Shown one piece after another: positions 6,839 through 60,495 of a stretch of 64,000 nucleotides of DNA. Each line of letters starts with the position of its first letter. The stretch's first letter is position 1. The DNA lies in assembly GCA_017307375.1 (NCBI GenBank), contig JAFKFH010000007.1:372001-436000 (forward strand), written 5' to 3'. The notes beneath the pieces are model-generated. The model was not told where the DNA came from and made no database searches. It saw only the letters and a program-made list of their open reading frames with translations. Origin of the DNA: Alphaproteobacteria bacterium (lineage in GTDB: Bacteria > Pseudomonadota > Alphaproteobacteria > Ferrovibrionales > Ferrovibrionaceae). Position numbers and translations under genes: made by a program.

Positions 6839-6856
6839 CGGGACCCGCGCGTCCCG
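6839..6856. other. Inverted repeat upstream of cheY
   Basis: CGGGAC-CCGCGC-GTCCCG, a perfect 6-bp dyad just upstream of the cheY ribosome-binding site (GGAGG). It lies in the only sizeable gap of the che run and could be a weak terminator, a 5' structure or chance. No T-run follows. Confidence 0.25.
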
Positions 6857-6874
6857 ACGGCGGAGGCGTGTAGA

Positions 6875-7243: not shown

Positions 7244-7287
7244 CAGTTAGGCGGGCCGGATCAGTACCCGGTCGGAACAGGCAGGAT

Positions 7288-44189: not shown

Positions 44190-44315
44190 ATGAATGTCGT
44201 GGAATTGACCCGGGTGGTCGGGCGGCGGAACGGCCGTTATGCCCTGGCGGCGGTGCGGCGGGCCCAGGCCCAGCGGGTGGTGGTACGCATGTGGTCCTGG
44301 CGGGTGCAGCCGTGA
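44190..44315 (+). CDS. 41-codon Arg/Val-rich ORF coupled to a solute-binding-protein gene
   Basis: MNVVELTRVVGRRN starts after a good GGAGG at five bases spacing, and the 41-residue peptide (9 Arg, 9 Val) ends at a TGA that overlaps the GTG start of the next gene (GTGA). It resembles a leader peptide or translational coupler rather than an enzyme. No known family recognised. The preceding gap (44015-44189) holds an AT-rich stretch near 44110-44155 that is probably the divergent promoter for this gene and the old yellow enzyme gene. Confidence 0.45.
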   Translation: MNVVELTRVVGRRNGRYALAAVRRAQAQRVVVRMWSWRVQP

Positions 44316-45889
44316 GGCATTGGCTGCGTGCCGCGGTTGCGGCGCTGTCGCTTCTTGCCGCGCCCCTGGCGGCGCAGGAAGCTCCGCGCAACGGCGGCAC
44401 GCTCAATCTGATCGTGCAGCCGGAGCCGCCGACCCTGATGCTCGGGCTGAACAAGCTCGGCCCGGTCTCGTTCGTCGGCGCCAAAATCTACGAGGGGCTG
44501 ATCACCCTCGGCCCCAAGCTCGAGCCGTTGCCGGCCCTGGCCAAATCCTGGGAAATATCTCCGGACGGCCTGACCTATACCTTCCGCCTGCAGCAGGGCG
44601 TGACCTGGCATGACGGCCGGCCGTTCTCGTCGGCCGATGTCGTGTTCAGCTTCAAGGACTATCTGCCGGCGGCGTTCCCGCGCACCAAGATGGTGATCGA
44701 CCGGACCGAATCGATCACGGCCCCCGACGCGGACACGGTCGTCTTCAAGTTCCGCGAGCCTTTCCCGGCGGCGATCTTCATCTTCGAGGTGACCGGCGGC
44801 ACGATCGTGCCGCGCCATCTCTACGAAGGCACCGATTTCCGCACCAATCCGGCGAACCAGACGCCGGTCGGCACCGGCCCGTTCAAGTTCAAGGAGTGGC
44901 GCAAGGGTGCCTTCATCCATCTGGTGAAGAACGAGGCTTACTGGCAGAAGGGCAAGCCGCATCTCGACGCGCTCTATTTCCACGTCGTTCCCGATGCCAA
45001 CGGCCGGTCGATCGCCTTCGAACAGGGCAAGGTCGACGTGCTGCGCGGCGGCGACGTCGAGAATTTCGAGGTCCGCCGGCTGGCCGGCCTCCCGGGGGTC
45101 GAGCTCAGCGACAAGGGCTGGGAATTCTACGACCCGATCGCCTGGATCAACCTGAACCTGCGCAACAAGCCACTCGACGACATCCGCTTTCGCCAGGCGC
45201 TGTCGCATCTGATCGACCGCAAGTTCATCGTCGACACGATCTTTGCCGGCTTCGGCAAGCCGCTCGAATCACCGTTCAGCCATCTCAGTCCCTTCGTCGA
45301 TCCGAAAGCCTGGGTGGCGCATCCGCACGACGTGGCCAAGGCCCGGGCGCTGCTCGACGAGATGGGCCTCAAGCCGGGGCCGGACGGCACCCGGGTCGAA
45401 CTGCGGCTGCTGCCGCTGCCCTATGGCGAGACCTGGGCGCGCTTTGCCGAGTACCTGCGCGAACGGCTGGCCGAAGCCGGCATCCGGACCAGGATCGAGA
45501 GCACCGACGTCGCCGGCTGGTTCCAGCGGATCTCGGCCGGGAATTTCGATCTCGCCTTCAACTTCGTCTACCAGCTGGGCGACCCGGCGATGGGCGTCAA
45601 CCAGACCTATCTGTCGACGAACCAGTTGAACCGGGGCTCGGCGGCGAATGTCGGCGGCTACGTCAATCCGGAAGTGGACGCGCTGCTCGAGCGGGCGGCC
45701 GTGACCAACGACCGGGCGGCCCGCCAGCAGCTCTACAGCGATGTGCAGCACATCCTGACTCGCGACGTCGCCATCCTCTGGACCCACCAGATGGGCTTCC
45801 CGAGCCTCTATCGCACCAAGGTGCGCAACCTGATCACCACCGGCCTCGGCCTGAACGAGAGCTTCGCCGACGTCTGGCTGGCGCGTTGA
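44312..45889 (+). CDS. ABC transporter solute-binding protein family 5 (peptide/nickel type)
   Basis: 525 residues from a GTG start. Signal peptide RHWLRAAVAALSLLAAPLAA with cleavage near AQE. Family 5 pattern: NLIVQPEPPTLMLG near 31, LAKSWEISPDGLTYTFRL near 77 and GVTWHDGRPFSSADVVFSFK. It binds peptides or other mid-sized solutes in the periplasm. No permease or ATPase of the Dpp/Opp type is near, so partners are elsewhere. Confidence 0.85.
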   Translation: MRHWLRAAVAALSLLAAPLAAQEAPRNGGTLNLIVQPEPPTLMLGLNKLGPVSFVGAKIYEGLITLGPKLEPLPALAKSWEISPDGLTYTFRLQQGVTWHDGRPFSSADVVFSFKDYLPAAFPRTKMVIDRTESITAPDADTVVFKFREPFPAAIFIFEVTGGTIVPRHLYEGTDFRTNPANQTPVGTGPFKFKEWRKGAFIHLVKNEAYWQKGKPHLDALYFHVVPDANGRSIAFEQGKVDVLRGGDVENFEVRRLAGLPGVELSDKGWEFYDPIAWINLNLRNKPLDDIRFRQALSHLIDRKFIVDTIFAGFGKPLESPFSHLSPFVDPKAWVAHPHDVAKARALLDEMGLKPGPDGTRVELRLLPLPYGETWARFAEYLRERLAEAGIRTRIESTDVAGWFQRISAGNFDLAFNFVYQLGDPAMGVNQTYLSTNQLNRGSAANVGGYVNPEVDALLERAAVTNDRAARQQLYSDVQHILTRDVAILWTHQMGFPSLYRTKVRNLITTGLGLNESFADVWLAR

Positions 45890-45914
45890 TTTCCGTCACA
45901 CTGGAGTAGACCCG

Positions 45915-46703
45915 ATGTTCAAGCTTACCCGCCGCCTCGCCCTGATCGCCGCCGTGGCGCTGGCGACCCTGCCTGCCATGGCGCAGGACAAGCCGCTCAA
46001 GATCGGCGTGTCGTCCGGCCCCTATGGCGACATCCTGCGCGAGACCGCGAAGCTCGCCGCCAAGGAAGGGCTGCAGGCCGAGATCGTCGAATTCACCGAA
46101 TGGACCCAGATCAACGAGGCGCTGCAACTCGGCGATATCGACGCCAACAATTTCCAGCACGTCCCCTATCTCGACAACCAGAAGAAGCAGCGCGGCTACA
46201 AGATCGTCCCGCTGGTGCCGTCCATCGTCGTGCCGACCGGGCTCTATTCGGCCAAGGCGGCCACGGTCGACGCGATCCCGGCCGGGGCCAAGATCGGCAT
46301 TCCCAACGATCCGTCGAACTCGGCCCGCGCCTTGTTCCTGTTGCAGCAGGCGGGGCTGATCAAGCTGAAGCCGGGCGTCGACGTCGGCGCGACCGCCGCC
46401 GACATCGTCGAGAACCCGAAGAAGATCAGCCTGATCGAACTCGACGCCGCGCAGCTGCCGCGGTCGCTCAACGATCTCGGCGCGGCGGTCATCACGCTGA
46501 ACTATGCGGTGCTGGCCAAGCTCGATCCGAAGAAGGCGCTGGTCCTTGAGGGGCCGGAATCGCGCTGGACCCTGGTCTGGGCGGTGCGCGAGGACCGCAA
46601 GGACGATCCCCGCATCCGCCGTTTCGTCGAGCTCTATCGCTCGCCCGAAATCAAGTCGTTCATCCTGACGAAGTTCGACGGGACCATCCTGCCGACGTGG
46701 TAA
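45915..46703 (+). CDS. MetQ/NlpA-family substrate-binding protein
   Basis: 262 residues. A Sec signal peptide (LALIAAVALATLPAMAQ) lacks the lipobox Cys of canonical MetQ, so it should be soluble in the periplasm. Mature family motifs: KIGVSSGPYGDILRETAKLA near 30, FTEWTQINEALQLGDIDANN near 56, then FQHVPYLD and GIPNDPSNSARALFLLQQAG near 129. D-methionine binding is known for the family, but no metN or metI is present here. It follows the family 5 binding protein by 25 bp. Confidence 0.82.
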   Translation: MFKLTRRLALIAAVALATLPAMAQDKPLKIGVSSGPYGDILRETAKLAAKEGLQAEIVEFTEWTQINEALQLGDIDANNFQHVPYLDNQKKQRGYKIVPLVPSIVVPTGLYSAKAATVDAIPAGAKIGIPNDPSNSARALFLLQQAGLIKLKPGVDVGATAADIVENPKKISLIELDAAQLPRSLNDLGAAVITLNYAVLAKLDPKKALVLEGPESRWTLVWAVREDRKDDPRIRRFVELYRSPEIKSFILTKFDGTILPTW

Positions 46704-46709
46704 GGCGCC

Positions 46710-47333
46710 TCAGGCCCGGGGCGCGGGCGAGCAGATGACCGAGGCATCGTGGCCGATGCAGCAGTCATAGGCGAAACCCGCCCCGAGGCCGAGGCTGAGT
46801 GCCAGCAGCGCTGTGGTGGCACCCTTCGAGAACAGGCCCTTGTACCAGCTCTTCTTTTCCTCCGGCGTCGGGGCCTCGGTGCCTTCCGCGGCCGGCGGCG
46901 ACAGGGCGGCGGCGAAATTGTCGAAGAATTCGCCGGCCAGCTTGGTCGCGGTCGAATCGATCAGCCGGGCGCCGAGCTGGGCCAGCTTGCCGCCGATCTG
47001 GGCGTCGACCTCGTAGGTCAGGCGGGTGCCTTCCGCCTCGTCGGTCAGCTTGACGCTGGCGCCCCCCTTGGCGAAACCGGCCACGCCGCCCGACCCTTCG
47101 CCGGAAATGCGATAGCCGTTCGGCGGGTCGAGGTCCGACAGCGTCACCTTGCCGGAGAACGTGGCCTTGATCGGGCCGATCTTCAGCTTGATCGTCGCCG
47201 TCATCTCGGTCGGCGACGCCATCTCGAGCGATTCGCAACCGGGAATCGCCCGCTTGAGGATTTCCGGATCGTTCAGCGCCGCCCAGACCACGTCGCGGGG
47301 GGCGGGGATCAGGCGGCTGTCCGACATCTGCAT
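46710..47333 (-). CDS. coxG: Carbon monoxide dehydrogenase accessory protein CoxG
   Basis: 207 residues. An SRPBCC (START-like) fold of ~150 residues (IPAPRDVVWAALNDPEILKR near 8, then IPGCESLE and GKLAQLGARLIDSTATKLAG) is followed by a hydrophilic linker and a hydrophobic C-terminal stretch (ATTALLALSLGLGAGFAY near 170). CoxG proteins are linked to membrane docking of CO dehydrogenase and electron transfer to quinone. It is the last gene of the cox run and convergent with metQ, 6 bp apart. Confidence 0.88.
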   Translation of the reverse strand: MQMSDSRLIPAPRDVVWAALNDPEILKRAIPGCESLEMASPTEMTATIKLKIGPIKATFSGKVTLSDLDPPNGYRISGEGSGGVAGFAKGGASVKLTDEAEGTRLTYEVDAQIGGKLAQLGARLIDSTATKLAGEFFDNFAAALSPPAAEGTEAPTPEEKKSWYKGLFSKGATTALLALSLGLGAGFAYDCCIGHDASVICSPAPRA

Positions 47334-47355
47334 GGCTGGCTGTCCTTACGATACT

Positions 47356-48183
47356 TCAGGCGTTGGCGGGCTGGCGTTGATCCCGGCGGCGGATCTGCAG
47401 GATCTCGGCCAGGATGGAAAGGGCAATCTCGTCGGGCGTGATCGCGCCGAGGTCGAGGCCGGCCGGCCCCTTGACACGATCGAGACGCTCCGGCCCGATC
47501 CCATCCTCGATCAGACCGTCGCGCAGGGCCGACATCTTGCGCCGGCTGCCGACGAAAGCAATATGTTCGGCGTCGACCGAAAGCGCGGCCTTCAACGCCG
47601 CCTCGTCGCCGCGACCCTGGGTCGCCACCACCAGATAGCGCCGCCCGTCGGCCGCGACCGGCAGGGCATAGCCCTCGATGCGCTGGTCAGGCTCGGCGAA
47701 GCGGGCCTGTTCCTCGGCCGGCGCGCAGACGGTCAGGTGGTAGCCGAAGCGGGGGGCTAGCTCGGCCAGCGCCATGGCGACCGGGCTGGCGCCGAGCACG
47801 ACCAGGCGCGGCTTGGGCAGCATCGGCTCGACGAAGACATCCATGCTGCCCTGGCTCGGGCACATGTTGCGGGCAAACCGGATCCCTTCGCGCTCGTCGC
47901 CGGGCTTGACGCCTTTTTCGGCCAGCAGATCCTGCGGCTGGATCGAGACCAGCCGGGGCTGGCCGTCGGCCAGCGCGTCGCGCGCGGCGCGCAGCACGGC
48001 CGTGCGGGCGCAGCCGCCGCCGATCCAGCCCTCGGTGATCGTGCCGTCGGGGCGGATCACCGCCTTGGCCCCGGCCTTGGCGGCGGTGACCGAGACAGTG
48101 CGGACGACAGTCGCCAGCGCGAAGGCTTCGCCGCCGGCCTTCAGCCGGGCGACGAGGTCGAGCATGTCGGGCTGCGGCTGCAT
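47356..48183 (-). CDS. coxF: XdhC/CoxI-family CO dehydrogenase maturation protein (CoxF)
   Basis: 275 residues. N-terminal XdhC domain with TVVRTVSVTAAKAGAKAVIR near 25 and EGWIGGGCARTAVLRAAR near 51; C-terminal Rossmann domain with PRLVVLGASPVAMALAELA near 125. XdhC-type proteins bind or insert the molybdenum cofactor, including sulfuration, into xanthine-dehydrogenase-family enzymes. Location between coxE and coxG matches coxF of Oligotropha. AGGAGG precedes the ATG. CoxI is a paralogue that cannot be fully excluded. Confidence 0.85.
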   Translation of the reverse strand: MQPQPDMLDLVARLKAGGEAFALATVVRTVSVTAAKAGAKAVIRPDGTITEGWIGGGCARTAVLRAARDALADGQPRLVSIQPQDLLAEKGVKPGDEREGIRFARNMCPSQGSMDVFVEPMLPKPRLVVLGASPVAMALAELAPRFGYHLTVCAPAEEQARFAEPDQRIEGYALPVAADGRRYLVVATQGRGDEAALKAALSVDAEHIAFVGSRRKMSALRDGLIEDGIGPERLDRVKGPAGLDLGAITPDEIALSILAEILQIRRRDQRQPANA

Positions 48184-48192
48184 GACATCCTC

Positions 48193-49341
48193 CTACAGAC
48201 GGGCGAGATAGGGTTCGAGGGCGCCGAGGCTGGCAAGGTCGTGAGCCGCGGCGAACAGGTCGACATGGGGCAGGGCGGCCGCCATCCCGCGGGCCACCGG
48301 CTGATAGTCTTTCCAGCCCAGCAGCGGATTGAGCCAGACGATGCGGCGGCAGCGGCGGCGCAGGGCCGCCATCTCGGCGCCCAGCCGTTCCGGTGCGCCG
48401 GTGTCGTAGCCGTCGGACAGGATCATCACGCAGGTGCGCGAATTGATGACGCGCGCGGCGTGGTGGCGGTTGAAATCGGCCAGTGCGTCGCCGATCCGGG
48501 TGCCGCCGCCGACCCCCTCGACCATCAGCCCCAGCCGGTCGAGCGCGCGGGCGGCGTCCTTCTCGCGCAGCGCGGCCGAGACATGGACGAGCCGGGTATG
48601 GAACAGGAAGGCCTCGGCCTCGCGGAAATGCTCGAGGATGCCGTGGACGAAGCGGAGGAAGACCGAGGTATAGAGGCTCATCGAGCCGGAGGCGTCCACC
48701 AGCACGACCAGGCGCAGCGGCGGACGGCGCCGGCGGCGCTGGACCAGGTCGAGCGGCAGGCCGCCGGTCGCCAGGCTGGCGCGGATCGTCGCCCTGAGGT
48801 CGGGCCGGCGGCCGCGCCGGTGCCGCTGCCAGCGCCGCGACAGCCTGGTGCGCATCGTCCGGGCCAGCCGCTCGGCCAGGTCATGGGCGCGCGCCATCGC
48901 CGCCGGGTCGGCCAGGTGGCGGAAATCGGTATGGGCCAGGTTCTCATGCCGGCTGGCGCCTTCGCGACGGCCGTGCGGCGCCGCGTCCGCCATGCCGTCG
49001 GCGGCATCGGCGAGGCCGCCCGCCTGGCCGGCTTCGGCCAGGCTGCGCATGGTCCGCTGGCTGGTCTGGGCGCCGGCCCGGGTGACTGCGACCCGGGTCC
49101 TGACGCCGCGGCCGGTCCAGAAGGTATCGAACAGGTCGTCGAAGGCGCGCCAGTCGACCCGGCTGCCGCAGCAGAGCGCGCGCAGCGCGGGCTTTACCGT
49201 CGTGGCCCGCCGGTAGGGGGGCGCCGCCAGGATCCGCAGGGCATCGCGGCTCTCGGCCAGGCCGATCCGAAAGCCGTTGTCGCGCAGGGTGCGCAGGAAA
49301 CCGGCCAGCCGCCGGCGGATCGCGAGCGTCTCGCCGTCCAT
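48193..49341 (-). CDS. coxE: CO dehydrogenase maturation VWA protein CoxE
   Basis: 382 residues. The C-terminal von Willebrand A domain has a MIDAS motif VDASGSMS near 219, with GGTRIGDAL and VMILSDGYDTGAP later. The Arg-rich N-terminal half is typical of CoxE. Together with the MoxR ATPase CoxD it builds the [CuSMoO2] active site in Oligotropha. Its start at 49341 overlaps the coxD stop (TGATG). Confidence 0.9.
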   Translation of the reverse strand: MDGETLAIRRRLAGFLRTLRDNGFRIGLAESRDALRILAAPPYRRATTVKPALRALCCGSRVDWRAFDDLFDTFWTGRGVRTRVAVTRAGAQTSQRTMRSLAEAGQAGGLADAADGMADAAPHGRREGASRHENLAHTDFRHLADPAAMARAHDLAERLARTMRTRLSRRWQRHRRGRRPDLRATIRASLATGGLPLDLVQRRRRRPPLRLVVLVDASGSMSLYTSVFLRFVHGILEHFREAEAFLFHTRLVHVSAALREKDAARALDRLGLMVEGVGGGTRIGDALADFNRHHAARVINSRTCVMILSDGYDTGAPERLGAEMAALRRRCRRIVWLNPLLGWKDYQPVARGMAAALPHVDLFAAAHDLASLGALEPYLARL

Positions 49342-50219
49342 CAGGCGACCCGGCCGATCAGCCGCTCGATCACCGCGCGCGGCAGCCGGCCGCGATCCTC
49401 CCGGGTCTTGACGATGCAGGCCAGCGTGTCGAACACCGCCTCGCGGTCGGCATCGAGCCGGCCGACACCCAGCCCCATCAGCGCCGCCGCCCAGTCGAGC
49501 GTCTCGGCGACCCCCGGGCGTTTCACGAGGTCCTCGCGCCGGATCGCCGCGATCATCTCGGCGATCTGCTGGGCCAGCGCGATGTCGATGCCGGGAAGCC
49601 GGGCGCGCAGGATCGCCGCCTCGCGCTCGACGTCGGGAAAGTCGAGGGCATGATAGAGGCAGCGCCGGCGCAGCGCGTCGGACAGTTCGCGGGTGCCGTT
49701 CGAGGTCAGGATGACCCGCGGGATCGAGCGGGCAGCGATCGTGCCGAGTTCGGGAACCGAAACCTGGAAATCCGACAGCACTTCCAGCAGGAAGGCCTCG
49801 AATTCGGCGTCCGCCCGGTCGATCTCGTCGATCAGCAATACCGGACTGGCTTCCCGCCGGATCGCGGCGAGCAACGGGCGTTCGAGCAGGTAGCGCTCGG
49901 AGAAGACGTGGGCCTCGACCGCATCGGCATCGGCGCCTTCGCGCGCCTTGATGGCCATGAGCTGGCGCTGGTAGTTCCATTCGTACAGCGCGTCGGCCCG
50001 GTCGAGGCCCTCGTGGCATTGCAGCCGGATCAGTTCGGCCCCGTGCACCGCCGCCAGGGCCTTGGCGACCTCGGTCTTGCCGACCCCGGCCTCGCCCTCC
50101 AGCAGCAGCGGCCGGCGCAGCATGTCCATCAGGGCCAGCGCGGTCGCAAGCCCGCCGTCGGCGACATAGCCGACGGCGGCCAGGCAAGAGGCGAGCCCGG
50201 TGCGATCCGGGCTGGACAT
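49341..50219 (-). CDS. coxD: CO dehydrogenase maturation MoxR-type AAA+ ATPase CoxD
   Basis: 292 residues. Walker A LLEGEAGVGKTEVAKAL near 38, LYEWNYQRQLMAIK near 77, Walker B VLLIDEIDRADAEFEAFLLE near 126 and sensor 1 ILTSNGTRELSDALRRRC. A MoxR ATPase next to a VWA protein is the standard pairing for metal-centre assembly. In Oligotropha CoxD is needed to sulfurate and copper-load CoxL. Start at 50219 overlaps the coxL stop. Confidence 0.92.
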   Translation of the reverse strand: MSSPDRTGLASCLAAVGYVADGGLATALALMDMLRRPLLLEGEAGVGKTEVAKALAAVHGAELIRLQCHEGLDRADALYEWNYQRQLMAIKAREGADADAVEAHVFSERYLLERPLLAAIRREASPVLLIDEIDRADAEFEAFLLEVLSDFQVSVPELGTIAARSIPRVILTSNGTRELSDALRRRCLYHALDFPDVEREAAILRARLPGIDIALAQQIAEMIAAIRREDLVKRPGVAETLDWAAALMGLGVGRLDADREAVFDTLACIVKTREDRGRLPRAVIERLIGRVA

Positions 50220-52633
50220 CACGCCCCCAGGTCTTGCGCCGCCTGCCACAGGCGCCAGGCGTCATGCGGCATCTGGATGTGGGTCGCGCCCAGGAACGAG
50301 AAGGCGTCGTTGACGGCGTTGGAGAAGCAGGGCACGCCGCCGACATTCGGGCTTTCGCCCACCCCCTTGGCCCCGATCGGGTGGTGGGGCGAAGGCGTCA
50401 CGGTGAAGTCGGTTTCCCAGACCGGGGTCTCGACCGCCGTGGGCAGGAAGAAATCCATGAACGACGCGCCGATGACGTTGCCGAGCTCGTCGTAGCGGAT
50501 TTCCTGGCCCATCGCGATCGCGAAGGCCTCGGTCAGGCCGCCATGCACCTGGCCTTCGATGATCATCGGGTTGATGCGGGTGCCGCAATCGTCCAGCGCA
50601 TAGAACCGCCTGGTCGTGGCGACACCGGTATCGACGTCGATGTCCATCACGCAGATATAGGCGCCGAACGGATAGGTCATGTTCGGCGGGTCGTAGTAGT
50701 TGACCGCCTCGAGCCCCGGTTCGAGACCCGGGGGCGGGCTGTTATAGGCGGCCCAGGCGATCTCCTTCATCGTCTTGGCACGTTCGGGGTTGCCCTTGAC
50801 GCGGAAGCCGTCGATGTCCCATTCCAGGTCGTATTCGGAAACCTCCAGCAGATGGGCGGCGATCATCTGCGCCTTGGCCTTGATCTTGCGCGCGGCCATG
50901 GCGATGGCCGCGCCGGTCACCGGCGTCGAACGCGAGCCGTAGGTGCCGAGGCCATAGGGCGCGGTATCGGTGTTGCCTTCCTCGATCATGATGTCGTCGG
51001 CGGGAATGCCGAGCTCGGTGGCGATGATCTGCGCCCAGGTGGTCTCGTGGCCCTGGCCCTGGCTCTTCGATCCCATGCGGGCGATGATCGAGCCGGTCGG
51101 GTGGATGCGGATCTCGGCCGAGTCGAACATGGCGACGCCGAGGATGTCGCAGTTCTTCGACGGCCCGGCCCCGACGATCTCGGTGAAGAACGAGACGCCG
51201 ATGCCCATGATCTCGCGGGTTTCGCCGCGGCGGAACGCTTCGCGCCTGCGTGCCTGCTCGGCCCGCAGCTCGGCATAGCCGACCGCATCCATCGCCTTGC
51301 GCATCGCCGTGTCGTAGTCGCCGGAATCGTATTCCCAGCCCAGCGCCGACTGGTAGGGAAACTGGTCGCGCCGCACGAAGTTGCGCAGGCGCAATTCGGC
51401 GGGATCGAGACCCAGCTTGTGGGCCAGGATGTCCATCGCCCGTTCGATGCAGTAGGCGGCCTCGGTGACGCGGAACGAGCAGCGATAGGCGACGCCGCCC
51501 GGCGCCTTGTTGGTATAGACGCCGTCGACCGCGAGGTGGGCGACGGGGAAGTCATAGGACCCGGTGACGATGTTGAAGAACCCGGCCGGCCATTTCGACG
51601 GGTCGGCACAGGCGTCGAACGCGCCGTGATCGGCCAGCACATGGACCCGGAGGCCGGTGACCTTGCCATCCTTGGTCGCCGCGATCTCGGTGGTCATGTG
51701 GTAGTCGCGGGCGAAGGACGTGGTCGACAGGTTCTCGATCCGGTCCTCGACCCACTTCACCGGCTGCCCGGTGACGATGGTGGCGACGATCGCGCAGATG
51801 TAACCCGAATAGGCGCCGACCTTGTTGCCGAAGCCGCCGCCGATATCGGGGGCGACGACGTGGATCTTGTGTTCCGGAATCTTCGACAGCAGCGAGGCGA
51901 CGGTGCGGATGACGTGCGGCGCCTGGAAGGTGCCGTGCACGGTCAGCTCACCCTTGATCTTGTCGAAACTGGCGACGCACTGGCAGGTCTCGAGCGGCGA
52001 GGGATGGACGCGCTGATAGGAGATCATCTCCTTGATGGTGACGTCGGCGCGGTTGAACGCCTCGTCGGTGGCGGCGCGGTCGCCGACCGTCCATTCGAAG
52101 ATGTGGTTGTGGTGCTTGCGCGGGCCGTGCGCCCCGACCGTCTTGCCGGCGAGATCCGGGCGCAGTTCCGGTGCATCCGGGTCCAGCGCCTTGAACGGGT
52201 CGACCAGGACCGGCAGTTCCTCGTACTCGACCTCGACCAGCTGGATCGCATCGTCGGCGACATAGCGGTTCTCGGCGACGACGAAGGCGATTTCCTGGTT
52301 CTGGAAATGCACCTTGCCGTCGGCCAGCACCGCCTGGACGTCGCCGGCCAGCGTCGGCATCCAGTGCAGGCCCAGCGGCTTCAGGTCGTCGGCGGTCAGC
52401 ACCGCGATCACGCCCGGCAGGGCACGGGCCTTGGCGGCATCGATACGCTTGATCCGGGCATGGCCGTATTGCGAGCGCACGAAATCGCCGTGCAGCATGC
52501 CCGGCAGTTTCAGGTCGTCGACGTAGTTGCCCTTGCCCTGGGTGAACCGGATGTCTTCGACCCGCTTGCGCTTGCAGCCCATGCCCTCCAGGCGGGCTTC
52601 GCGCTGTTCGCGCGTGATCACCATCTCGTTCAT
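50219..52633 (-). CDS. coxL: Aerobic CO dehydrogenase large subunit CoxL, form I
   Basis: 804 residues, close to the 809 of Oligotropha CoxL. Catalytic subunit holding molybdopterin cytosine dinucleotide and the Mo-Cu site that oxidises CO to CO2. The active-site loop reads VAYRCSFR, the form I signature AYxCSFR, with the copper-ligand Cys at 385. Other cofactor motifs: [10 protein letters not shown] near 234, IGGGFGNK near 264 and the catalytic Glu in [13 protein letters not shown] near 746. These separate it from the many putative form II enzymes with AYRGAGR. ATG overlaps the coxS stop (ATGA). Confidence 0.96.
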
Positions 52634-53133
52634 TCCGCAGCCTCCTGGCTGGGCCGGCCGTTGATCACGGCGGCGGCATGGCGCACGGCCTTGACGATGT
52701 TCTGGTAGCCGGTACAGCGACAGAGATTGCCGGCGATGCCCTGGCGCACCTCGTCGTCGGTCGGATCGGGGTTCTCGCGCAGCAGCACGCTCGCCCGCAT
52801 GATCATGCCGGGCGTACAGTAGCCGCATTGCAGGCCGTGCATCTGCCGGAAGCTCTCCTGCAGCACCGACAGCGTGCCGTCCGGATTGGCCATGCCTTCG
52901 ATCGTGGTGATCGTGGCGCCATCGGCCTGGGCGGCGAACATCGTGCAGGATTTGACCGACATGCCGTCGAGATCGACGGTGCAGGCGCCGCAGTGGCTGG
53001 TCTCGCAGCCGATATGGGCACCGGTCAGGCCGAGGTCCTCGCGCAGGAAATGGATCAGCAGCAGCCGCGGATCGACGAAGCGCCGCACGCTGCGGCCGTT
53101 CACGGTGATCGAGATCGGGATCTGATCGGTCAT
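52630..53133 (-). CDS. coxS: CO dehydrogenase iron-sulfur subunit CoxS
   Basis: 167 residues with two [2Fe-2S] clusters. The plant-type N-terminal cluster uses Cys in [16 protein letters not shown] (~43-58) plus KSCTMFA near 62. The C-terminal cluster uses [14 protein letters not shown] (~99-112) and [13 protein letters not shown] (~134-146). It passes electrons from the molybdenum site in CoxL to FAD in CoxM. Size is normal. Located 4 bp after coxM. Confidence 0.97.
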
Positions 53134-53137
53134 CGGG

Positions 53138-54010
53138 TCAGGCTCCGTTTGCGGCGCGCTGGGCGGCGCGGGTCAGGGCGCGGGCGACCATCACCCCGGC
53201 CATTTCCCGGCGATAGGCGGGCGGGCCGCGGCCATCGCCGGCCGGATCGGTGATCGCCTTGGCGGCGTCCGCGGCGGCCTTGACGTCGGCGGGGGCGAGG
53301 TTCGAGCCGACAAGCCCGGCGGCGGCGGCGTTCGCCAGCAGCGGGGTCGGGCCGAGATTGGTCAGCGCGATGGCGCAGGTCGCGACCTTGCCGGCCGCCA
53401 GGGTCAGGACGACGGCGGCCGCCGCGGTCGCGTAGTCGCCGACCTTGCGCTTCAGCTTCTCATAGGCCCAGCCATGGCCAGCCGGTGGCGCGGGTACGCG
53501 GATCGCGGTGAGGATCTCGGCCGGGGCCAGCGCCGTCGCGTAAGGCCCGAGGTAGAATTCGGCGGCCGGTATCTCGCGCACGCCATCGGGTCCCTCGGCG
53601 ACGTAGCGCGCCCCCAGGCACTGCATCACGGCCGGCATGTCGTTCCCCGGGTCGCCATTGGCGACATTGCCGCCGAGCGTGCCGAGATAGCGGATCTGCG
53701 GGTCGGCAATCTGCAGCGCCGTGCCGCGGATGATCGGCAGGCGGGCCGCCAACAGGTCGGAGGCGATGGCCTGGGCCTGGGTCACGGCCGCGCCGATCAC
53801 GATGTCGCCGCCGTCTTCGGCGATCGTCTTCAACGCGCCGATGCCGCGCAGGTCGACCAGATGTTCCGGTGCCGCCATGCGCAGCTTCATCATCGGAATC
53901 AGGCTGTGGCCGCCGGCCAGCGGCCGTGCCTCCTCGCCATGGTCCGCCAGCAGCGCGACCGCTTCCTGTACCGTGCCGGGCCGGTGATAGACGAATGTGC
54001 CGGGTATCAA
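53138..54010 (-). CDS. coxM: CO dehydrogenase flavoprotein subunit CoxM
   Basis: 290 residues from a TTG start at 54010, preceded by GAGGAGG six bases away; this gives [18 protein letters not shown] at the N-terminus, as in other CoxM. FAD motifs [17 protein letters not shown] near 30 and [18 protein letters not shown] near 103. Passes electrons from CoxS to the respiratory chain. The order M-S-L-D-E-F-G matches the Oligotropha cox cluster core. Upstream 231 bp carry direct repeats that may bind a regulator. Confidence 0.94.
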
Positions 54011-54103
54011 GCGCGCCTCCTCCTCAGGTCTCGCCGCCGCTTCTGGGGGCGGCCGTCTCGGGAGACCGAGCTTGGAAATGCGTGCGGTGCACAATCAACG
54101 CGA

Positions 54104-54155
54104 CCTGCACCGGACGGCCAAAAACCGCACGGAACAGCGAATTTCCGCACGAACT
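54104..54155. promoter_or_regulatory. Three direct repeats upstream of coxM (candidate LytTR operator)
   Basis: In the 231-bp gap between coxM and the iclR gene, similar blocks occur in tandem: CCTGCACCGGAC (54104), CCGCACGGAAC (54126) and CCGCACGAAC (54146). The shared GCAC cores start at 54107, 54128 and 54148, so the spacing is 21 and 20 bp, two helical turns. A fourth GCAC is at 54089. LytTR regulators bind direct repeats about 21 bp apart, and a CoxC-like LytTR protein is encoded nearby. The rest of the gap shows nothing I recognise. Confidence 0.4.
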
Positions 54156-54241
54156 GCGACAGTTATGCTGACGCAATCGGCGCGAGATGCAGGCCTCTAG
54201 ATCGCGAGTGCTAAGTCATCCATCGGTTTGCTGCGATGCAC

Positions 54242-55033
54242 CTAACCGCCCCAGCGGGCATCGCCGATCTTGGCGCCGATCCGGCTCGCCGTGACCAGCA
54301 GGGTATCGACGATCGCCTGGTCGCCACCGTCCTGTACCGAGAACAGCGGGTAGGAGACCGACAGGGCGACGGCCTTTTCCTTGTCGGTATCCTGGAACGC
54401 GACCGAGATGGCCTTGACCCCGTCGAACAGTTCCTGGTTCGACACGGCGTAGCGGCGCAACCGCGTCAGGGCGAGTTCGGCGATCAGATCGTCGACCGCG
54501 CCGAGGGTGGCGCCGGTGGTCGGCGGCAGGCCGCCGGGGAACAGCGCGCGCACCTCGCCGTCGGCCTTCAGGGCCAGCAGGGCCTTGCCCATCGCCGCGG
54601 CATGCGCGGGCAGTCGGCGGCCCGGTTCGACGGAGAACTGGATCGGGTGGGTGCCGCGCACGGTCTTCAGCACCACGACCTCGGTGCCCGAGAGGATGCC
54701 GGCCCAGGCGGTGTGGCCGGTCTGGGCCGACAGGTCGGCCATTTCCTGGCCGACCTGATCGACCAGGTCGAAATGCCGGTGGAAGCCGGAGGCGAGCTGC
54801 ACGGCGAGAATGCCCGGCCGATAGCGCTGGGTCGCCGGGTTCTGCTCGACCAGTCCGCCGCGGCTCATGCTGGCGAGCAGCCGCGAGGCGGTGGAGCGGG
54901 TGACGTTGAGGTGCCGGCCGGTTTCGGCGACGCTGATCTCGCGCCCCGCGCTTGCCATCAGCCTCAACGCCTCGACGGCCTTTTCGATCGACTTCATTGG
55001 AATCCCAACAGACGGCTTGACCGGCGCTGACAC
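54242..55033 (-). CDS. IclR-family transcriptional regulator
   Basis: 263 residues. Winged HTH with ISVAETGRHLNVTRSTASRL near 34, and a C-terminal effector domain with HTAWAGILSGTEVVVLKTV near 106 and AAAMGKALLALKADG. Start taken at the GTG at 55033; ATG 54997 is an alternative that would shorten it by 12 residues. Divergent from the ThDP-enzyme gene, with repeat elements in the 83-bp gap, so that operon is its likely target. It lies upstream of, and on the same strand as, coxM. Confidence 0.88.
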   Translation of the reverse strand: MSAPVKPSVGIPMKSIEKAVEALRLMASAGREISVAETGRHLNVTRSTASRLLASMSRGGLVEQNPATQRYRPGILAVQLASGFHRHFDLVDQVGQEMADLSAQTGHTAWAGILSGTEVVVLKTVRGTHPIQFSVEPGRRLPAHAAAMGKALLALKADGEVRALFPGGLPPTTGATLGAVDDLIAELALTRLRRYAVSNQELFDGVKAISVAFQDTDKEKAVALSVSYPLFSVQDGGDQAIVDTLLVTASRIGAKIGDARWGG

Positions 55034-55045
55034 GCCTGTGTAACC

Positions 55046-55080
55046 TATTATGCATCATGTTGCGTATTATGCAACATGCA
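55046..55080. promoter_or_regulatory. Overlapping direct and inverted repeats, candidate IclR operator
   Basis: TATTATGCATCAT (55046-55058) and TATTATGCAACAT (55065-55077) are direct repeats with 12/13 identity, 19 bp apart. Overlapping them is the perfect dyad ATGTTGC-N7-GCAACAT (55057-55077). The segment is AT-rich against a GC-rich background and fills the divergent region between the IclR gene and the ThDP-enzyme gene. Confidence 0.6.
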
Positions 55081-55116
55081 AAATCGAGTTGATCGCGGAA
55101 AGAGGCGGGGAACCCC

Positions 55117-56805
55117 ATGCGCGGCACGGCCGGCAAGATCGTCTACGAAACCCTGAAGTCCTACGGCGTCACCTGCCTGTTCGGCATGGAAGACCCGATC
55201 CACATCTTCCACGCCGTCGACCGCGCCTTCACCCGCATCGTCACCGTCCGCGACGAGAAGCACGCCGCCATCATGGCCCATGGCTATGCCCAGGCGACCG
55301 GGCGCCCCGGCGTCTGCACCTCGACCTTCGGCCCGGGCGCCACCAACCTGATCACCGGTCTCCTCGAGGCCCAGCGGTCGTCCGTGCCGGTCATCGCGCT
55401 GGTGCAGGACCATGCGTTGAAGATGAAGGACAGGCATGCGTCTTCGGCGCTGGACCATGTCGCGGCGATGGCGCCCTACGTCAAACAGGCTATTCGCATC
55501 GACCTGCCCGAACAGGCCGGCGACATCATCCGCAAGGCTTTCCGCCTGGCCACCACCGGCCGTCCCGGCCCGGTCGCCGTGATCTGCCCGAGCGACGTGC
55601 TGGCAACCGAGACCGAGGCAGCCACCCATGCCGAGGCGGCCTATCTCGGCTTTCCCGCCAATCGCGTGCGGGCGGCCGCCGACGCCACCGCCGCGGCCGT
55701 GGCACTGCTGGTCCAGGCCGAGCGCCCGGTGCTCGTGGCCGGCGGTGGGTCGATCATCTCCGGGGCGACGGCCGAGATCGTGGCGCTGGCCGAACGGCTG
55801 GGCGCGCCGGTCGTCACCACGATGACCGGCCGTGGCGCGATCCCCGACAGTCACCCGTTGGCGGCCGGCCCGCTCGGCTCGACCACCGGCGGGCGGCTGG
55901 GGCGCGGCCGCGTCGCCAACACGGTGCTGGCCGAGGCCGACGTGGTGCTGATGATGGGCACGCGCACCGGCCAGATCTGCTACAGCGACTGGACGCTGCC
56001 CGGCCCGAACACCCGGGTGATCCACCTCGATATCGACCCGGCCGAGATCGGCCGCAATTTTTCGACCGACGTGGCCCTGGTCGGCGATGTCCGCGAGACG
56101 CTGAAGGACATCCTGGCGCTGGCCCGGGTCGAGGCACCGCGGCGGCCCGAAGGCCGCGTCGCCACGCTGCGCCAGCAATGGCAGGACGACTTCTCGCCGT
56201 TCGGCAGCTCCGACCAGCAGCCGATCCGTCCCGAACGGCTGCTGCGCGAGATTTCGGCCACCGTCGATTCCGCGACCCTCGTGGTGACCGACGCCAGCTA
56301 CATCACCGGCTGGGCGATGAGCCATATCGATGTCGTCGCGCCCGGGCGCTTCATCCTGTCGCCGCGCGGCACCGGCGGCATCGGCTGGAGCCTGCCGGCA
56401 GCCATCGGCGCCAAGCTGGGCGACCCGTCGCGCAAGGTGGTCTGCGTCACCGGCGATGGCGCCTTCGGCTATGTCATGAACGAGCTGGAGACCGCGGCGC
56501 GCTACGGCGTCGAAGTCCTGGTCGTCGTCTTCAACAACGGCACGCTGGGTTTCCAGCGCCATTGGGAGGAGAAGGCGATGGGCCGCTATCTCGAATGCGA
56601 TTTCCTCGACGTCGACTACGCCGAGGTCGGGCGCGCGCTGAAATGCGGCGGCGAGCGGGTGCGCGACCCGGCGGCCGTCGCGGCGGCGCTGGCCCGCGGC
56701 ATGGCGACGAAGGGGCCCTACGTCGTCGACGTCGTGATCGATCCGAACGCGACGGCACCGATCGTGGGCATGGAACGGGGCATTGCCGCCGGCGACGCCC
56801 ATTGA
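55117..56805 (+). CDS. Thiamine-diphosphate-dependent enzyme (acetolactate-synthase-like)
   Basis: 562 residues with the three domains of the AHAS/pyruvate-oxidase superfamily. N-terminal PYR domain: DEKHAAIMAHGYAQATG near 47 with the catalytic Glu, and GPGATNLITGLLEAQ. Central domain: VLVAGGGSIISGA near 206. C-terminal PP domain: TGDGAFGYVMNELETA near 447 with the Mg/ThDP motif ending in VFNNGTLG. The exact substrate is unknown; a 2-keto acid is likely. It heads a plus-strand operon with an amino-acid-type ABC transporter under probable IclR control. Confidence 0.85.
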   Translation: MRGTAGKIVYETLKSYGVTCLFGMEDPIHIFHAVDRAFTRIVTVRDEKHAAIMAHGYAQATGRPGVCTSTFGPGATNLITGLLEAQRSSVPVIALVQDHALKMKDRHASSALDHVAAMAPYVKQAIRIDLPEQAGDIIRKAFRLATTGRPGPVAVICPSDVLATETEAATHAEAAYLGFPANRVRAAADATAAAVALLVQAERPVLVAGGGSIISGATAEIVALAERLGAPVVTTMTGRGAIPDSHPLAAGPLGSTTGGRLGRGRVANTVLAEADVVLMMGTRTGQICYSDWTLPGPNTRVIHLDIDPAEIGRNFSTDVALVGDVRETLKDILALARVEAPRRPEGRVATLRQQWQDDFSPFGSSDQQPIRPERLLREISATVDSATLVVTDASYITGWAMSHIDVVAPGRFILSPRGTGGIGWSLPAAIGAKLGDPSRKVVCVTGDGAFGYVMNELETAARYGVEVLVVVFNNGTLGFQRHWEEKAMGRYLECDFLDVDYAEVGRALKCGGERVRDPAAVAAALARGMATKGPYVVDVVIDPNATAPIVGMERGIAAGDAH

Positions 56806-56854
56806 GGGCATGGCCGGTGGCCCGGGGGCACGAATTCCAAGAAGAAGGGAGAGC

Positions 56855-57661
56855 ATGATGTTGAAGAAGTTGATTGCGCCGCTGATGGTGGCGGCGTCCG
56901 TGGTGCTGGCGGCCGGCTCGGCGCTGGCCGGGGCGACGCTCGACCGCGTCATTGCCGAGAAGAAGCTGGTCGTCGGCGTGGCGCCGTGGAATAAGTTCGT
57001 CGCGCAGAATCCGAAGACCCAGCAGTTCGAGGGACTGATCGTCGACGACATCAGGAACTTCGAAGCGCTGACCGGCATCAAGGTCGAGCTGGTGAATACT
57101 ACGTGGTCGGGTCTGATCGCCGGCCTGCAGGCCGGCAAGTGGGACGTGATCATGTCCGGCATGGGGGCGACGCCCGAGCGCGCCACCGCCGTCGCCTTCG
57201 GCGAGCCGTTCGGCTACCTGTCGTCGACCGCGATGCTGAAGGCCGACAACAAGGCCCAGAGCCGTGACGATCTCGACAAGCCCGGCAACATCATCACCGC
57301 GGTGGCCGGGACCTCGGCGTTCCAGTTCGCCCAGCGCTCGTTCAAGCAGGCCAAGGTCAACGGCCTGACCGATACCGGCGCCGCCGTGCTGGAGGTCATG
57401 CAGGGCCGTGCCGTCGCCTATATCGGCGATTCCGTCTCGAATGCGGGGCGCGCCCAGGAACGGCCGACCGAACTGCGCAACCTCGTCTTCGCGCCCGACC
57501 AGACCGAGTGGACGACGATGAACCACGCGGTGCGCTATGCCGATCTCGACCTGATGGTCTTCCTCGACACCTATATCCGGGCGATGAAGCTGCGCGGCTG
57601 GTATCGCGGCCTGGCCGAGAAGTGGAACCTGCCGCCGGAACTGGCGACCGGCCCGAAGTAA
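56855..57661 (+). CDS. Amino-acid-type ABC solute-binding protein (family 3)
   Basis: 268 residues. Signal peptide KKLIAPLMVAASVVLAAGSA with cleavage near ALAG. Family 3 pattern: VIAEKKLVVGVAPWN near 33, FEGLIVDDIRNFEALTG near 58, WSGLIAGLQAGKWDVIMSGM near 85 and ITAVAGTSAFQFAQ. Binds an amino acid or related carboxylate. Two adjacent ATGs (56855, 56858) follow AAGGGAGAG. Followed by its permease after 74 bp. Confidence 0.9.
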   Translation: MMLKKLIAPLMVAASVVLAAGSALAGATLDRVIAEKKLVVGVAPWNKFVAQNPKTQQFEGLIVDDIRNFEALTGIKVELVNTTWSGLIAGLQAGKWDVIMSGMGATPERATAVAFGEPFGYLSSTAMLKADNKAQSRDDLDKPGNIITAVAGTSAFQFAQRSFKQAKVNGLTDTGAAVLEVMQGRAVAYIGDSVSNAGRAQERPTELRNLVFAPDQTEWTTMNHAVRYADLDLMVFLDTYIRAMKLRGWYRGLAEKWNLPPELATGPK

Positions 57662-57735
57662 GTCTCGAGCGCCGATCGTCGCGCCGGGCGCGACCCGGGG
57701 CGACGGTCGGCGCCTCATCTTCGAGGACTCCCACG

Positions 57736-58404
57736 ATGAACTATACCTTCCAGTTCGGCGTGCTGGCCGAATACGGGCCCTATCTGGCGGGCGGCCTGTG
57801 GCATGCCTGGTGGACCAGCTTTCCCTCGATCATCCTGACCACAGTGCTCGGCGTCGTACTGGCGGCGATGCACCTGACGCGCTCGATCCTGCTGCGCGGC
57901 GCCGCAGTGGTCTTCGTCGACCTGTTCCGCACCTTGCCCGTCGTCGTGCTGCTGATCTGGATCCACTACGTGATGCCGATCCTGACCGGCATCTCGTCGT
58001 CGCCGACGACGTCGTCGATCATCGCCCTGTCGCTGAACGGCGCGGCGCTGGCCTGCGAAGCCTTCCGCGGTGGCCTCGCCGCCATTCCCCCGACCCAGAC
58101 CCAGGCGGCACAGTCGCTGGGTTTCTCGCGCTGGCAGGTCTTCCGCTACGTCACCCTGCCGCAGGCCTTCTTCGCGACGCTGCCCTCGCTGACCAACGTC
58201 CATATCACCGTGATCAAGAACGTCACGGTCACCGTGCTCATCGCGGTGCCGGAGGTGATGTTCCGCGCCCAGGAACTGACCATCCAGTTCTTCCGGCCGC
58301 TCGAATTCTATACCGGCGCGGCCATCCTCTATGTCGCCCTGATCTGGGGCTACGCCGTGTTCATGCGCTCGCTCGAGAAACTCCAGAAGTGGCAGCCGAT
58401 CTGA
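57736..58404 (+). CDS. Amino-acid-type ABC permease (HisM/GlnP family)
   Basis: 222 residues with about five membrane helices. The EAA coupling loop reads QTQAAQSLGFSRWQVFRYVT near 118. AHLAGLYHAWWTSF-type N-terminus and VFVDLFRTLPVVVLLIWI near 60 are typical of HisMQ/GltK permeases. Only one permease is encoded, so it probably forms a homodimer. The stop overlaps the ATPase start (TGATG). Confidence 0.92.
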   Translation: MNYTFQFGVLAEYGPYLAGGLWHAWWTSFPSIILTTVLGVVLAAMHLTRSILLRGAAVVFVDLFRTLPVVVLLIWIHYVMPILTGISSSPTTSSIIALSLNGAALACEAFRGGLAAIPPTQTQAAQSLGFSRWQVFRYVTLPQAFFATLPSLTNVHITVIKNVTVTVLIAVPEVMFRAQELTIQFFRPLEFYTGAAILYVALIWGYAVFMRSLEKLQKWQPI

Positions 58405-59156
58405 TGTCCGCCCCCGATCCCTTCGTTCGCGTCCACGGTGTCACCAAGACCTACGGTGCCGGCCCCGTGCTGAACGGCCTGTCGCTCGACCTCGCCCACG
58501 GCGAGGTGCTGGTGCTGTGCGGTCCCTCGGGCTGCGGCAAGTCCACCCTGCTGCGCTGCATCAACGGCCTGGAGACGATCGAAGGCGGCTCGATCACCGT
58601 CGGTGGTGTACGCGTCGATGGCGCCGATGCCGCGACGCTGCAGCAGATCCGCCTGGCCACCGGATTCGTCTTCCAGAACTTCAACCTGTTCCCGCATATG
58701 ACGGCGCTCGAGAACATCACCATCGCGCCGATGAAGATCCGCAACGTGTCGAAGCGCCAGGCGGAAGAGCAGGGTCGGGCGCTGCTGGCCCAGGTCGGCA
58801 TGCCCGACAAGGCGGCGAGCTTCCCCTTCCAGCTCTCCGGCGGCCAGCGCCAGCGGGTTGCGATCGCCCGGGCGCTGGCGATGCAGCCGTCGCTGATGCT
58901 GTTCGACGAGCCGACCTCGGCGCTGGATCCGGAAATGCGCGAGGAAGTGCTGCAGGTCATCCAGCGCGTGCATCACGAGCACGGCATGACGATGATCGTG
59001 GTGACCCATGAGATCGGCTTCGCCAAGAGCGTGGCGAGCCGCGCCATGCTGCTCGACGCCGGGCGCATCGTCGAGGAGGCGCCGGCACGCCAGTTCTTCA
59101 CCGAGCCGCGCGAGGAACGCACCCGCAAGTTCCTGCGGGCGATCGTCAACGAATAG
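58404..59156 (+). CDS. Amino-acid-type ABC ATPase (GlnQ/HisP family)
   Basis: 250 residues. Walker [20 protein letters not shown] near 37, Q-loop [18 protein letters not shown], signature [18 protein letters not shown] near 145, Walker [16 protein letters not shown] near 166 and H-loop [10 protein letters not shown]. Standard size without an extra regulatory domain. Last gene of the ThDP-enzyme/ABC operon; ends 3 bp from the end of the convergent coxC-like gene. Confidence 0.95.
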
Positions 59157-59159
59157 TCG

Positions 59160-60314
59160 TCAGCCCGCCCGCGGCAGCCGCCCGGCGCCGCGTTCCTCCA
59201 GTCGCTGTTTCAGCCATTGCCGCCGGGCGCGGGCCACCGGCGCCTGGTAGGCGACCGCCGTCGCCATCGTCACCAGGCCGGCGTCGCCCTGCCGGCGCAC
59301 GGTGGCGACGTGGTCGAGATTGACGATATGGCTGCGATGGATCCGGGCGAAGATCGCCGGATCGAGCAGTCCTTCCACTTCCGAGATCGACAGCGGGCAG
59401 AACCAGTTGTCCCGTCCGTCGAACAATTGCGTGTAGTGCGACTGGGCCTGCACCGCGATCAGCTCGGCCGCCGCCAGCGTGCCGCGGGTGCCGTGGCGCT
59501 CGATCGGCAGGGTCGGCGGGTCCGCCGTCTTCGCCGATGGGTCGAGCGTCACGACCGCTGCCGGCCCGCGAGCCGGCTCGTCCCTGGATTCAGTCTCGAT
59601 GGCCGCGGGCTCGGGCTCCGGCACCAGGGTGAGGAGGAACAGGCCGCACACCACGAAAGCCACGACCGAGACGACGATGGCGAGCAGGCCGGGTGTCAAT
59701 GCCGGCACGCCCTGCGCCATCGGCATGTCGTGGCCGGCCAGCGTCATCCCGGCCATCGCCGTGTAGTGCATGGCCGAGATGCCGATGGCGAGCAACGCGG
59801 CCGAGCCGACCATCGAGCGATGGACGCCGTTGCCAAATCCGAGCCACAAGGCGAGGCCGGAGGCGGCGACGCCGATCGCGACGGCCGCGATGACGAAGAC
59901 CGGGTCATGCGCCATGCCGGCGCTGGCATGCAGCGCCTGCATGCCGAGATAGTGCATCGTGACGATGCCCCCGCCCATGAACAGCGCCGCCAGTGTCAGC
60001 CGCCGTGCGGTCGCCGGCCCGGCGCCGACGGCAAAAACCGCGCAGCCGACGACCAGGACGCAGACGAGGAACGAGGCCAGGGTCGGCAGGACCAGGAAAT
60101 CGATCGCCACGGTCAGCCGCACCGCCAGCATGCCGACGAAATGCATGGTCCAGATGCCCAGCGCCAGCGATACCGCCGACATCGCGATCGCGGCGCGCCG
60201 CCGCATGCCCTGCATCGCATCGATGCCGCGGGCCATATGCAGTCCGACATAAGAGCCCAGAAAGGCCACGGCCAACGACAGCGCCACGAGCCACGGCTCG
60301 TAGGAAAATCCCAT
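59160..60314 (-). CDS. coxC: CoxC-like MHYT-LytTR membrane-bound regulator
   Basis: 384 residues from ATG 60314 (GGAGG eight bases upstream). Seven membrane helices (~10-245) contain three MHYT-type repeats, MHFVGM, MHYLGM and MHYTAM; the family is proposed to bind a metal and sense CO, O2 or NO. A soluble LytTR DNA-binding domain follows (~275-384) with FARIHRSHIVNLDHVATV. CoxC and CoxH of Oligotropha have an N-terminal MHYT domain, and CoxC also has LytTR. Given the form I cox genes 5 kb away, it is likely the CO-responsive regulator of coxM. Confidence 0.82.
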   Translation of the reverse strand: MGFSYEPWLVALSLAVAFLGSYVGLHMARGIDAMQGMRRRAAIAMSAVSLALGIWTMHFVGMLAVRLTVAIDFLVLPTLASFLVCVLVVGCAVFAVGAGPATARRLTLAALFMGGGIVTMHYLGMQALHASAGMAHDPVFVIAAVAIGVAASGLALWLGFGNGVHRSMVGSAALLAIGISAMHYTAMAGMTLAGHDMPMAQGVPALTPGLLAIVVSVVAFVVCGLFLLTLVPEPEPAAIETESRDEPARGPAAVVTLDPSAKTADPPTLPIERHGTRGTLAAAELIAVQAQSHYTQLFDGRDNWFCPLSISEVEGLLDPAIFARIHRSHIVNLDHVATVRRQGDAGLVTMATAVAYQAPVARARRQWLKQRLEERGAGRLPRAG

Positions 60315-60495
60315 GGTCGAATCCTCCGCCGACGGCCGGATCGCGCCTTCTTCGCGGGGCGCGCGCGGCCAGGGTCGGACCAAAGCTTAGACCGCGCTCG
60401 CGCCTTTGGCCATGCGCTCGGACGGATGGTCTGGCGGTGCCTGGCGGCGCTTCCTATACTCTTGGCGACAAGAAACTCCAGGGATGGAAAAGGCG

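Follow-up and report, generated by a model that had tools for sequence, protein, structure and literature searches.

Here we describe a form I molybdenum-copper (Mo-Cu) carbon monoxide (CO) dehydrogenase (CODH) gene cluster, coxM-S-L-D-E-F-G, in a 64,000-nt stretch of DNA, hereafter the window (contig JAFKFH010000007.1 of assembly GCA_017307375.1, positions 372,001–436,000 of the forward strand), from an Alphaproteobacteria bacterium of the family Ferrovibrionaceae, order Ferrovibrionales. Judged from its genes, the cluster is complete and probably functional, and its expression is most likely controlled by an MHYT-LytTR protein that is encoded behind an inserted block of five genes and that is predicted to act at three direct repeats before coxM. 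The enzyme cluster as such is ordinary and its regulatory wiring is mildly novel: what is new is the displacement of the regulator gene, the block inserted beside it and, at coxM, a conserved repeat element that would extend a published mechanism.

Gene content of the cluster and the form I assignment

The seven reading frames of coxM-S-L-D-E-F-G run along the minus strand from 54010 to 46710, all of them open and uninterrupted, with adjacent genes overlapping by 1–4 bases or standing 4–22 bases apart. Their order is that of plasmid pHCG3 of Afipia (Oligotropha) carboxidovorans OM5 (coxBCMSLDEFGHIK), and the proteins are 55–81% identical to those of OM5; the complete cluster claimed in the initial annotation is thus indeed present. 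A Pfam scan detected the expected domains in each of the seven proteins. The subunit genes stand in M-S-L order: coxM (53138–54010, 290 aa, TTG start) encodes the FAD-binding medium subunit (PF00941, PF03450; 64% identical to OM5 CoxM), coxS (52630–53133, 167 aa) the [2Fe-2S] small subunit (PF01799, PF00111; 76%) and coxL (50219–52633, 804 aa) the form I Mo-Cu large subunit (TIGR02416; 81%). They are joined by the maturation genes coxD (49341–50219; a MoxR-type AAA+ ATPase of 292 aa, PF07728, 69%, in which alignment with OM5 CoxD shows the Walker A motif GEAGVGKT to be retained), coxE (48193–49341; a VWA-domain maturation protein of 382 aa, PF05762 VWA_CoxE, 57%) and coxF (47356–48183; an XdhC-family maturation protein of 275 aa, PF13478 and PF02625, 60%), and by coxG (46710–47333), which encodes a probable membrane-recruitment protein of 207 aa (PF06240 COXG, 55%).

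The hallmark of form I enzymes is the CoxL active-site loop AYXCSFR with its copper-ligand Cys. In the window's CoxL the loop reads VAYRCSFR (residues 381–388, Cys at 385) and aligns with the AYRCSFR loop of OM5, so that we take Cys385 to correspond to OM5 Cys388. The two proteins are 81% identical over 797 of 804 aa in an alignment that is gap-free from residue 7 to near the C-terminus; the loop and the segments GTFQAPH and GAKGVGESP, which presumably carry the active-site Gln and Glu, are all identical. CoxL scored 1491 bits against the curated model TIGR02416 (cut-off 991) and, when searched with a longer 869-aa reading of the frame, 1547 bits against the crystallised OM5 enzyme (PDB 1n5w). 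The published form I definition (PMC6794299), which asks for >55% identity at 90% coverage when CoxL is compared with reference sequences, that of OM5 among them, also includes the window's CoxL.

A form II (CO dehydrogenase-like) molybdenum hydroxylase acting on another substrate would not be out of place in this genome, which encodes, besides a single form I CoxL, several distant paralogues, four of them CoxL-like proteins of that kind. These four nearest paralogues, however, have an AYRGAGR loop and are 34–38% identical to the window's CoxL in tree alignments (36–41% in the genome search), whereas the latter carries AYRCSFR and exceeds the TIGR02416 cut-off by 500 bits. In a tree of 54 rows, built by a quick method (a careful tree covers 24 rows), the 49 rows with a CSFR loop, the window included, were separated from five AYRGAGR rows, namely the four own-genome paralogues and one Azospirillum row, with a support of 100 in the Shimodaira-Hasegawa-like approximate likelihood-ratio test. 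Among the 48 rows that group with the window are OM5, Paraburkholderia, Thermomicrobium, Deinococcus and Natronorubrum; the loop is AYRCSFR in 47 of the 49 form I sequences and SYRCSFR in the other two (L093, L143). On the strength of the model score, the identity to OM5 and the tree we rejected the form II assignment, which is very improbable, and consider the enzyme almost certainly a form I CODH. The initial annotation had reached the same assignment from VAYRCSFR and Cys385; it had proposed a coxL phylogeny of form I against form II enzymes as one check and grouping with form II as a refuting outcome, which the tree does not show.

As for the remaining genes of the OM5 locus, neither OM5 CoxB nor the open reading frame (ORF) 3' of OM5 coxI found a match within the window when used as queries there, and OM5 CoxI matched the coxF gene only. 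Unlike pHCG3, the window is therefore without a coxB match or a separate coxI match. Of coxB, coxH and coxK, which had initially been described as not visible, coxB is accordingly still missing from the window, but a gene of the CoxC/CoxH type does occur in it.

A displaced MHYT-LytTR regulator and a repeat element before coxM

This gene (59160–60314, minus strand) was found by a genome-wide MHYT search. It lies 5.15 kb upstream of coxM, outside the region covered by the initial annotation, and encodes a protein of 384 aa with an MHYT domain (PF03707, 117 bits) and a C-terminal LytTR domain (PF04397, 47.7 bits). The MHYT search and the Pfam domains led us to reject the reading that the locus has no regulator of its own. 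In domain order and in its three MHYT-type motifs, at residues 57, 120 and 182, the protein resembles OM5 CoxC (motifs at 57–60, 118–121 and 180–183), a repressor that binds three TTNNNGCN repeats at PcoxB in a copper-dependent and CO-relieved manner (PMC11347149).

The regulator is 60% identical to that of Chthonobacter albigriseus (L013) and only 46% identical to OM5 CoxC. A 30-row tree places it (100/99) with the regulators of L013, L014 and L015 and with OM5 CoxH, represented there by its C-terminal coding sequence (CDS) only, and away from OM5 CoxC; it is thus no CoxC orthologue in the strict sense, and CoxC/CoxH-type is its proper name. L013–L015 are the nearest rows for CoxL and for the regulator alike, and regulator and enzyme therefore seem to share a history. 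C. albigriseus has the closest named CoxL (90%) and the same seven genes in order; it differs in that its regulator gene stands directly before coxM. In OM5 itself, coxH (L112, 18434–19634) appears as two overlapping CDS in the PLSDB table, which may reflect a frameshift or an annotation effect.

CoxC-type genes are a common feature of cox loci: counting matches over at least half of OM5 CoxC, we found them at 72 of 82 loci, OM5 included (80 named loci plus the OM5 and Shinella plasmids). The seven-gene order is fully collinear in 51 of the 82; the remaining 31 either failed the order test or had one or more genes without a match over half of the gene, and several of these contigs are short. 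RcoM was also considered as the regulator and rejected, as the two LytTR genes outside the window are without any other Pfam domain.

The predicted target of the regulator lies at 54105–54154 (minus strand), where three direct repeats, GTTCGTGCGG, TTCCGTGCGG and TCCGGTGCAG, follow one another at spacings of 20 and 20 bp, with 104 bp from the start of the third to the coxM start codon. We fitted a triplet matrix to 80 coxM upstream regions (80 of the 82 loci have a coxM match, and 79 of them at least 150 bp upstream; the window was added) and compared the scores with dinucleotide shuffles. In 77 of these regions, the window's among them, the score exceeded the 99% level of the shuffles; when the matrix was refitted to a single shuffled set, the resulting motif was weaker and GC-rich (median 13.5 versus 31.1 bits). 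After the window and OM5 had been excluded from training, the window site scored 29.5 bits and was the sole site of at least 17 bits on both strands of the 64 kb, giving a single predicted three-repeat operator of the type described for CoxC. At a cut of 21 bits we counted 66 sites upstream of coxM and three elsewhere when both strands of the 80 loci with a coxM match (3.26 Mb) were scanned.

Genes for MHYT-LytTR regulators and a triplet of repeats upstream of coxM are common to OM5 and the window. Its triplets (L112) lie before coxM at 10441 (28.4 bits) and in the coxH-coxI gap at 19653 (21.0 bits), and a site in the PcoxB region at 7401 falls inside the published 282-bp probe provided that the in-frame ATG 7669 is the start of coxB, a start that gives a 626-bp intergenic length, as in PMC11347149. 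One further match of 21.7 bits lies outside cox on the minus strand of the OM5 stretch, and a cut of 21 bits is thus not free of false positives. The triplet is above threshold in 71 of the 72 loci with coxC. Three loci show no coxC although 7.6 kb or more of upstream sequence is available, and two of them, L028 and L083, lack the triplet; this co-occurrence supports a link between coxC and the triplet. L028 and L083, form I cox loci with neither coxC within ~7.6 kb upstream nor the triplet, may be under other control.

By analogy with OM5 CoxC, for which both steps are shown on PcoxB (PMC11347149), the MHYT-LytTR protein would sit on the three coxM repeats and repress transcription when CO is absent, and the action of CO on its copper-loaded membrane domain would release the repressor. 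The proven operator of OM5 is at PcoxB and the predicted one of the window at coxM; the main text of PMC11347149 has no mention of 'PcoxM', and no other papers on CoxC operators were among the literature matches listed. We somewhat favour the view that alphaproteobacterial form I cox loci, OM5 included, have their main CoxC/CoxH operator in the triplet at coxM, with PcoxB not the only site, and that in the window a mobile block has unlinked the regulator gene, leaving a repressor that acts purely in trans. CoxC action has been published for PcoxB of OM5 (PMC11347149), and in most of the alphaproteobacterial loci compared here the triplet stands just before coxM, which offers a general test of this CO switch.

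Several observations weigh against such a role for the regulator and the repeats. The one proven CoxC operator, OM5 PcoxB, scores only 17.6 bits, and the window triplet ranks 48th of 80. The motif TTNNNGC is exact in window repeat 1 only, repeats 2 and 3 fitting a broader, GTGC-centred matrix; over the 77 sites, three exact repeats occur in 9, two in 35, one in 29 and none in 4. L091 has coxC and yet scores 11.9 bits, just under the 12.9-bit threshold, and L086 has strong repeats, yet no coxC within 8.6 kb. The loci counted are nearly all training loci, and related to one another, with the window and OM5 left out for the 29.5-bit scan. Finally, the closer OM5 counterpart of the regulator is the uncharacterised CoxH, not CoxC, and the genome has further genes with either domain, two with LytTR and one with MHYT (the latter on contig C23).

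A probable block insertion and the origin of the cluster

Of the 72 loci with coxC, 70 have no more than 600 bp between the coxC stop and coxM (median 214 bp), the exceptions being L087 (1338 bp) and L034 (2562 bp). In L034, a Hyphomonadaceae metagenome-assembled genome (MAG), coxC stands 2.6 kb from coxM (6037–8599) with other ORFs between. OM5 has two regulator genes; the window has one, 5.15 kb away behind the inserted block.

Five genes make up the block: an IclR-family regulator gene (54242–55033, minus strand; PF01614, PF09339), which reads towards coxM, and, all on the plus strand, genes for a thiamine-diphosphate enzyme resembling acetolactate synthase (55117–56805; PF00205, PF02775, PF02776), a family 3 solute-binding protein (56855–57661; PF00497), an ATP-binding cassette (ABC) permease (57736–58404; PF00528, detected in a longer ORF at 57508–58404) and an ABC ATPase (58404–59156; PF00005, in a longer ORF at 57798–59156). 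The ATPase gene is convergent with that of the MHYT-LytTR regulator and ends 3 bp from its stop. Three plasmids, from Bosea vaviloviae, Microvirga sp. VF16 and Bosea sp. NBC_00550, carry the same five genes in the same order and directions. Identities to the plasmid copies span 62–89% (62–65% for the IclR protein, 72–73% for the thiamine-diphosphate enzyme, 78–81% for the solute-binding protein, 88–89% for the permease and 77–78% for the ATPase); the plasmid search yielded these three records at 60–80% identity among 1617 with a match. The neighbours of the plasmid copies are unrelated, and the window's MHYT-LytTR regulator, CoxM, epimerase, SDR and NlpA proteins had no match in the three 19.7-kb plasmid stretches. 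In the plasmid stretches compared, the block is without cox genes beside it, in contrast to the window, where it splits the cox locus.

Because coxC adjoins coxM in 70 of the 72 loci and the block occurs on plasmids with other neighbours, the simplest reading, and very probably the correct one, is that the block arrived later and came to separate the regulator gene from coxM. No scar, direct repeats or target duplication were seen at the block ends, which counts against an insertion; the flanks share only one 10-bp inverted match, taken as chance. A class-wide search for the origin of the block gave nothing at E 1e-150 in 288 other genomes among the candidates scored, at most four in each of the 21 genomes listed.

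The coxM promoter would thereby have been parted from the regulator gene by a metabolic block that encodes an IclR regulator, a thiamine-diphosphate enzyme and an amino-acid ABC transporter. In this arrangement the regulator would act in trans from its own promoter, and coxM would rely on the repeat-bearing promoter or on read-through from iclR. It is conceivable, though unlikely, that the cluster is intact but silent or misregulated, the block having cut the regulator gene off from coxM and left it with iclR read-through or no active promoter. In keeping with this, the 5.15 kb between the two genes include genes of opposite direction, no sigma-70-like match was found in 53800–60600, and the cluster looks recent in its lineage, with a form I match (E 1e-200) in none of the 17 other genomes of the order. 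The sigma-70 scan, however, used a crude consensus for which 0.6 matches are expected by chance; the cox genes and the regulator gene are all open and near full length, the coxM repeats survive, and a trans-acting repressor has no need of linkage. A terminator between iclR and coxM was considered and rejected: the one pattern match (54152–54125) overlaps the repeats, and three such matches were found where 2.6 are expected.

A slightly less probable alternative is that cox is under the control of the IclR protein beside coxM, the MHYT-LytTR protein having another target. IclR is the regulator nearest to coxM and its gene reads towards it, and the MHYT-LytTR protein is closer to the uncharacterised CoxH of OM5 than to CoxC. 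Yet iclR occupies the same place before the thiamine-diphosphate enzyme gene on three plasmid stretches that lack cox genes, whereas CoxC-type genes accompany most cox loci and the repeats at coxM are of the published CoxC type. Control by the displaced MHYT-LytTR protein remains our preferred reading, and the split locus provides a natural experiment that bears on the importance of sensor–enzyme linkage.

The cluster itself was probably acquired laterally, for which the sequence evidence is moderate. Our sample of the order comprised 18 genomes, all of one family, and only the window's own genome gave the form I match; the other 17 are 72–100% complete. A 16S search matched just 2 of 19 genomes, the window's own not among them, and placement therefore relied on rpoB, by which the genome groups with G003, G004 and G018, among Dongia, Magnetospirillum-like, Rhodospirillales and Acetobacteraceae rows and apart from Hyphomicrobiales. 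In the careful 24-row tree, CoxL falls in a set of 11 rows (100/99), and eight of its ten other members carry Hyphomicrobiales-type labels. Vertical inheritance is disfavoured by a narrow margin only: forcing CoxL together with rhodospirillalean rows was rejected at P = 0.046 in the approximately unbiased test, with a group chosen after a first tree. Since L014, a Dongia MAG by its rpoB fragment, shares the CoxL group of the window, the evidence for transfer stays moderate. Mis-binning of the contig is possible.

Predicted function, CoxF motifs and neighbouring genes

CoxMSL of the window would oxidise CO to CO2, as its homologues do. OM5 mutants show that coxD, coxE and coxF are required for the Mo-Cu site, and coxG is non-essential, its mutant phenotype suggesting recruitment of the enzyme to the membrane (PMC4240915). 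Following what was concluded from these mutants, CoxD would sulfurate the Mo site, CoxE and CoxF would add the copper, and CoxG would probably take the enzyme to the membrane, from where electrons would enter the quinone pool.

Transfer of OM5 coxMSLDEFG to Ralstonia eutropha resulted in CO oxidation in cell pellets (PMC6011924). As these seven genes alone give some CO oxidation, the absence of coxB, coxI and coxK need not be damaging. Three points speak on the other side: the Ralstonia rates were 0.7 and 0.9 versus 4.8 nmol/min/mg pellet in OM5 and the strain remained dependent on H2 for growth (both PMC6011924), and the molybdopterin cytidylyltransferase model TIGR03310 stayed below its cut-off here (158.7 versus 186.45 bits). 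We nevertheless regard CO oxidation by the window cluster as highly probable, which would make this bacterium a likely CO oxidiser in an order whose 17 other genomes, as sampled, all lack a form I match.

A search for the large chain of ribulose-1,5-bisphosphate carboxylase/oxygenase (RuBisCO) gave no match in the whole genome (7.54 Mb, completeness 100%); run as a control, the RuBisCO search gave matches in 5 of 14 genomes. In OM5, by contrast, genes of the Calvin cycle adjoin cox. Given that no RuBisCO was detected, the organism is likelier to be a carboxydovore, that is, a bacterium with a form I CODH and without a complete Calvin cycle, than a CO autotroph, and CO would most likely serve as extra respiratory energy, not as a carbon source. 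The energy supplement proposed in the initial annotation fits this result.

A survey of 70 CoxF sequences, the window's included, bears on the motifs proposed for OM5 CoxF. The histidine-acid-phytase motif RHGxRx occurs in 2 of 70 and the tripeptide RGD in 36, and the proposed copper motif MCPSxG[T/S/A]M is present in 60, the 10 sequences without an MCP-type motif perhaps being partly a matter of truncation. CoxF of the window has MCPSQGSM and lacks RHGxR. This pattern of conservation favours the copper motif and disfavours phytase activity as a general role of CoxF.

Downstream of the cluster, two solute-binding protein genes (SBP_bac_5 and NlpA family; 44291–46703, plus strand) abut the 3' end of coxG. 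NlpA/MetQ genes lie near cox on Shinella pShin-03 as well, perhaps by chance.

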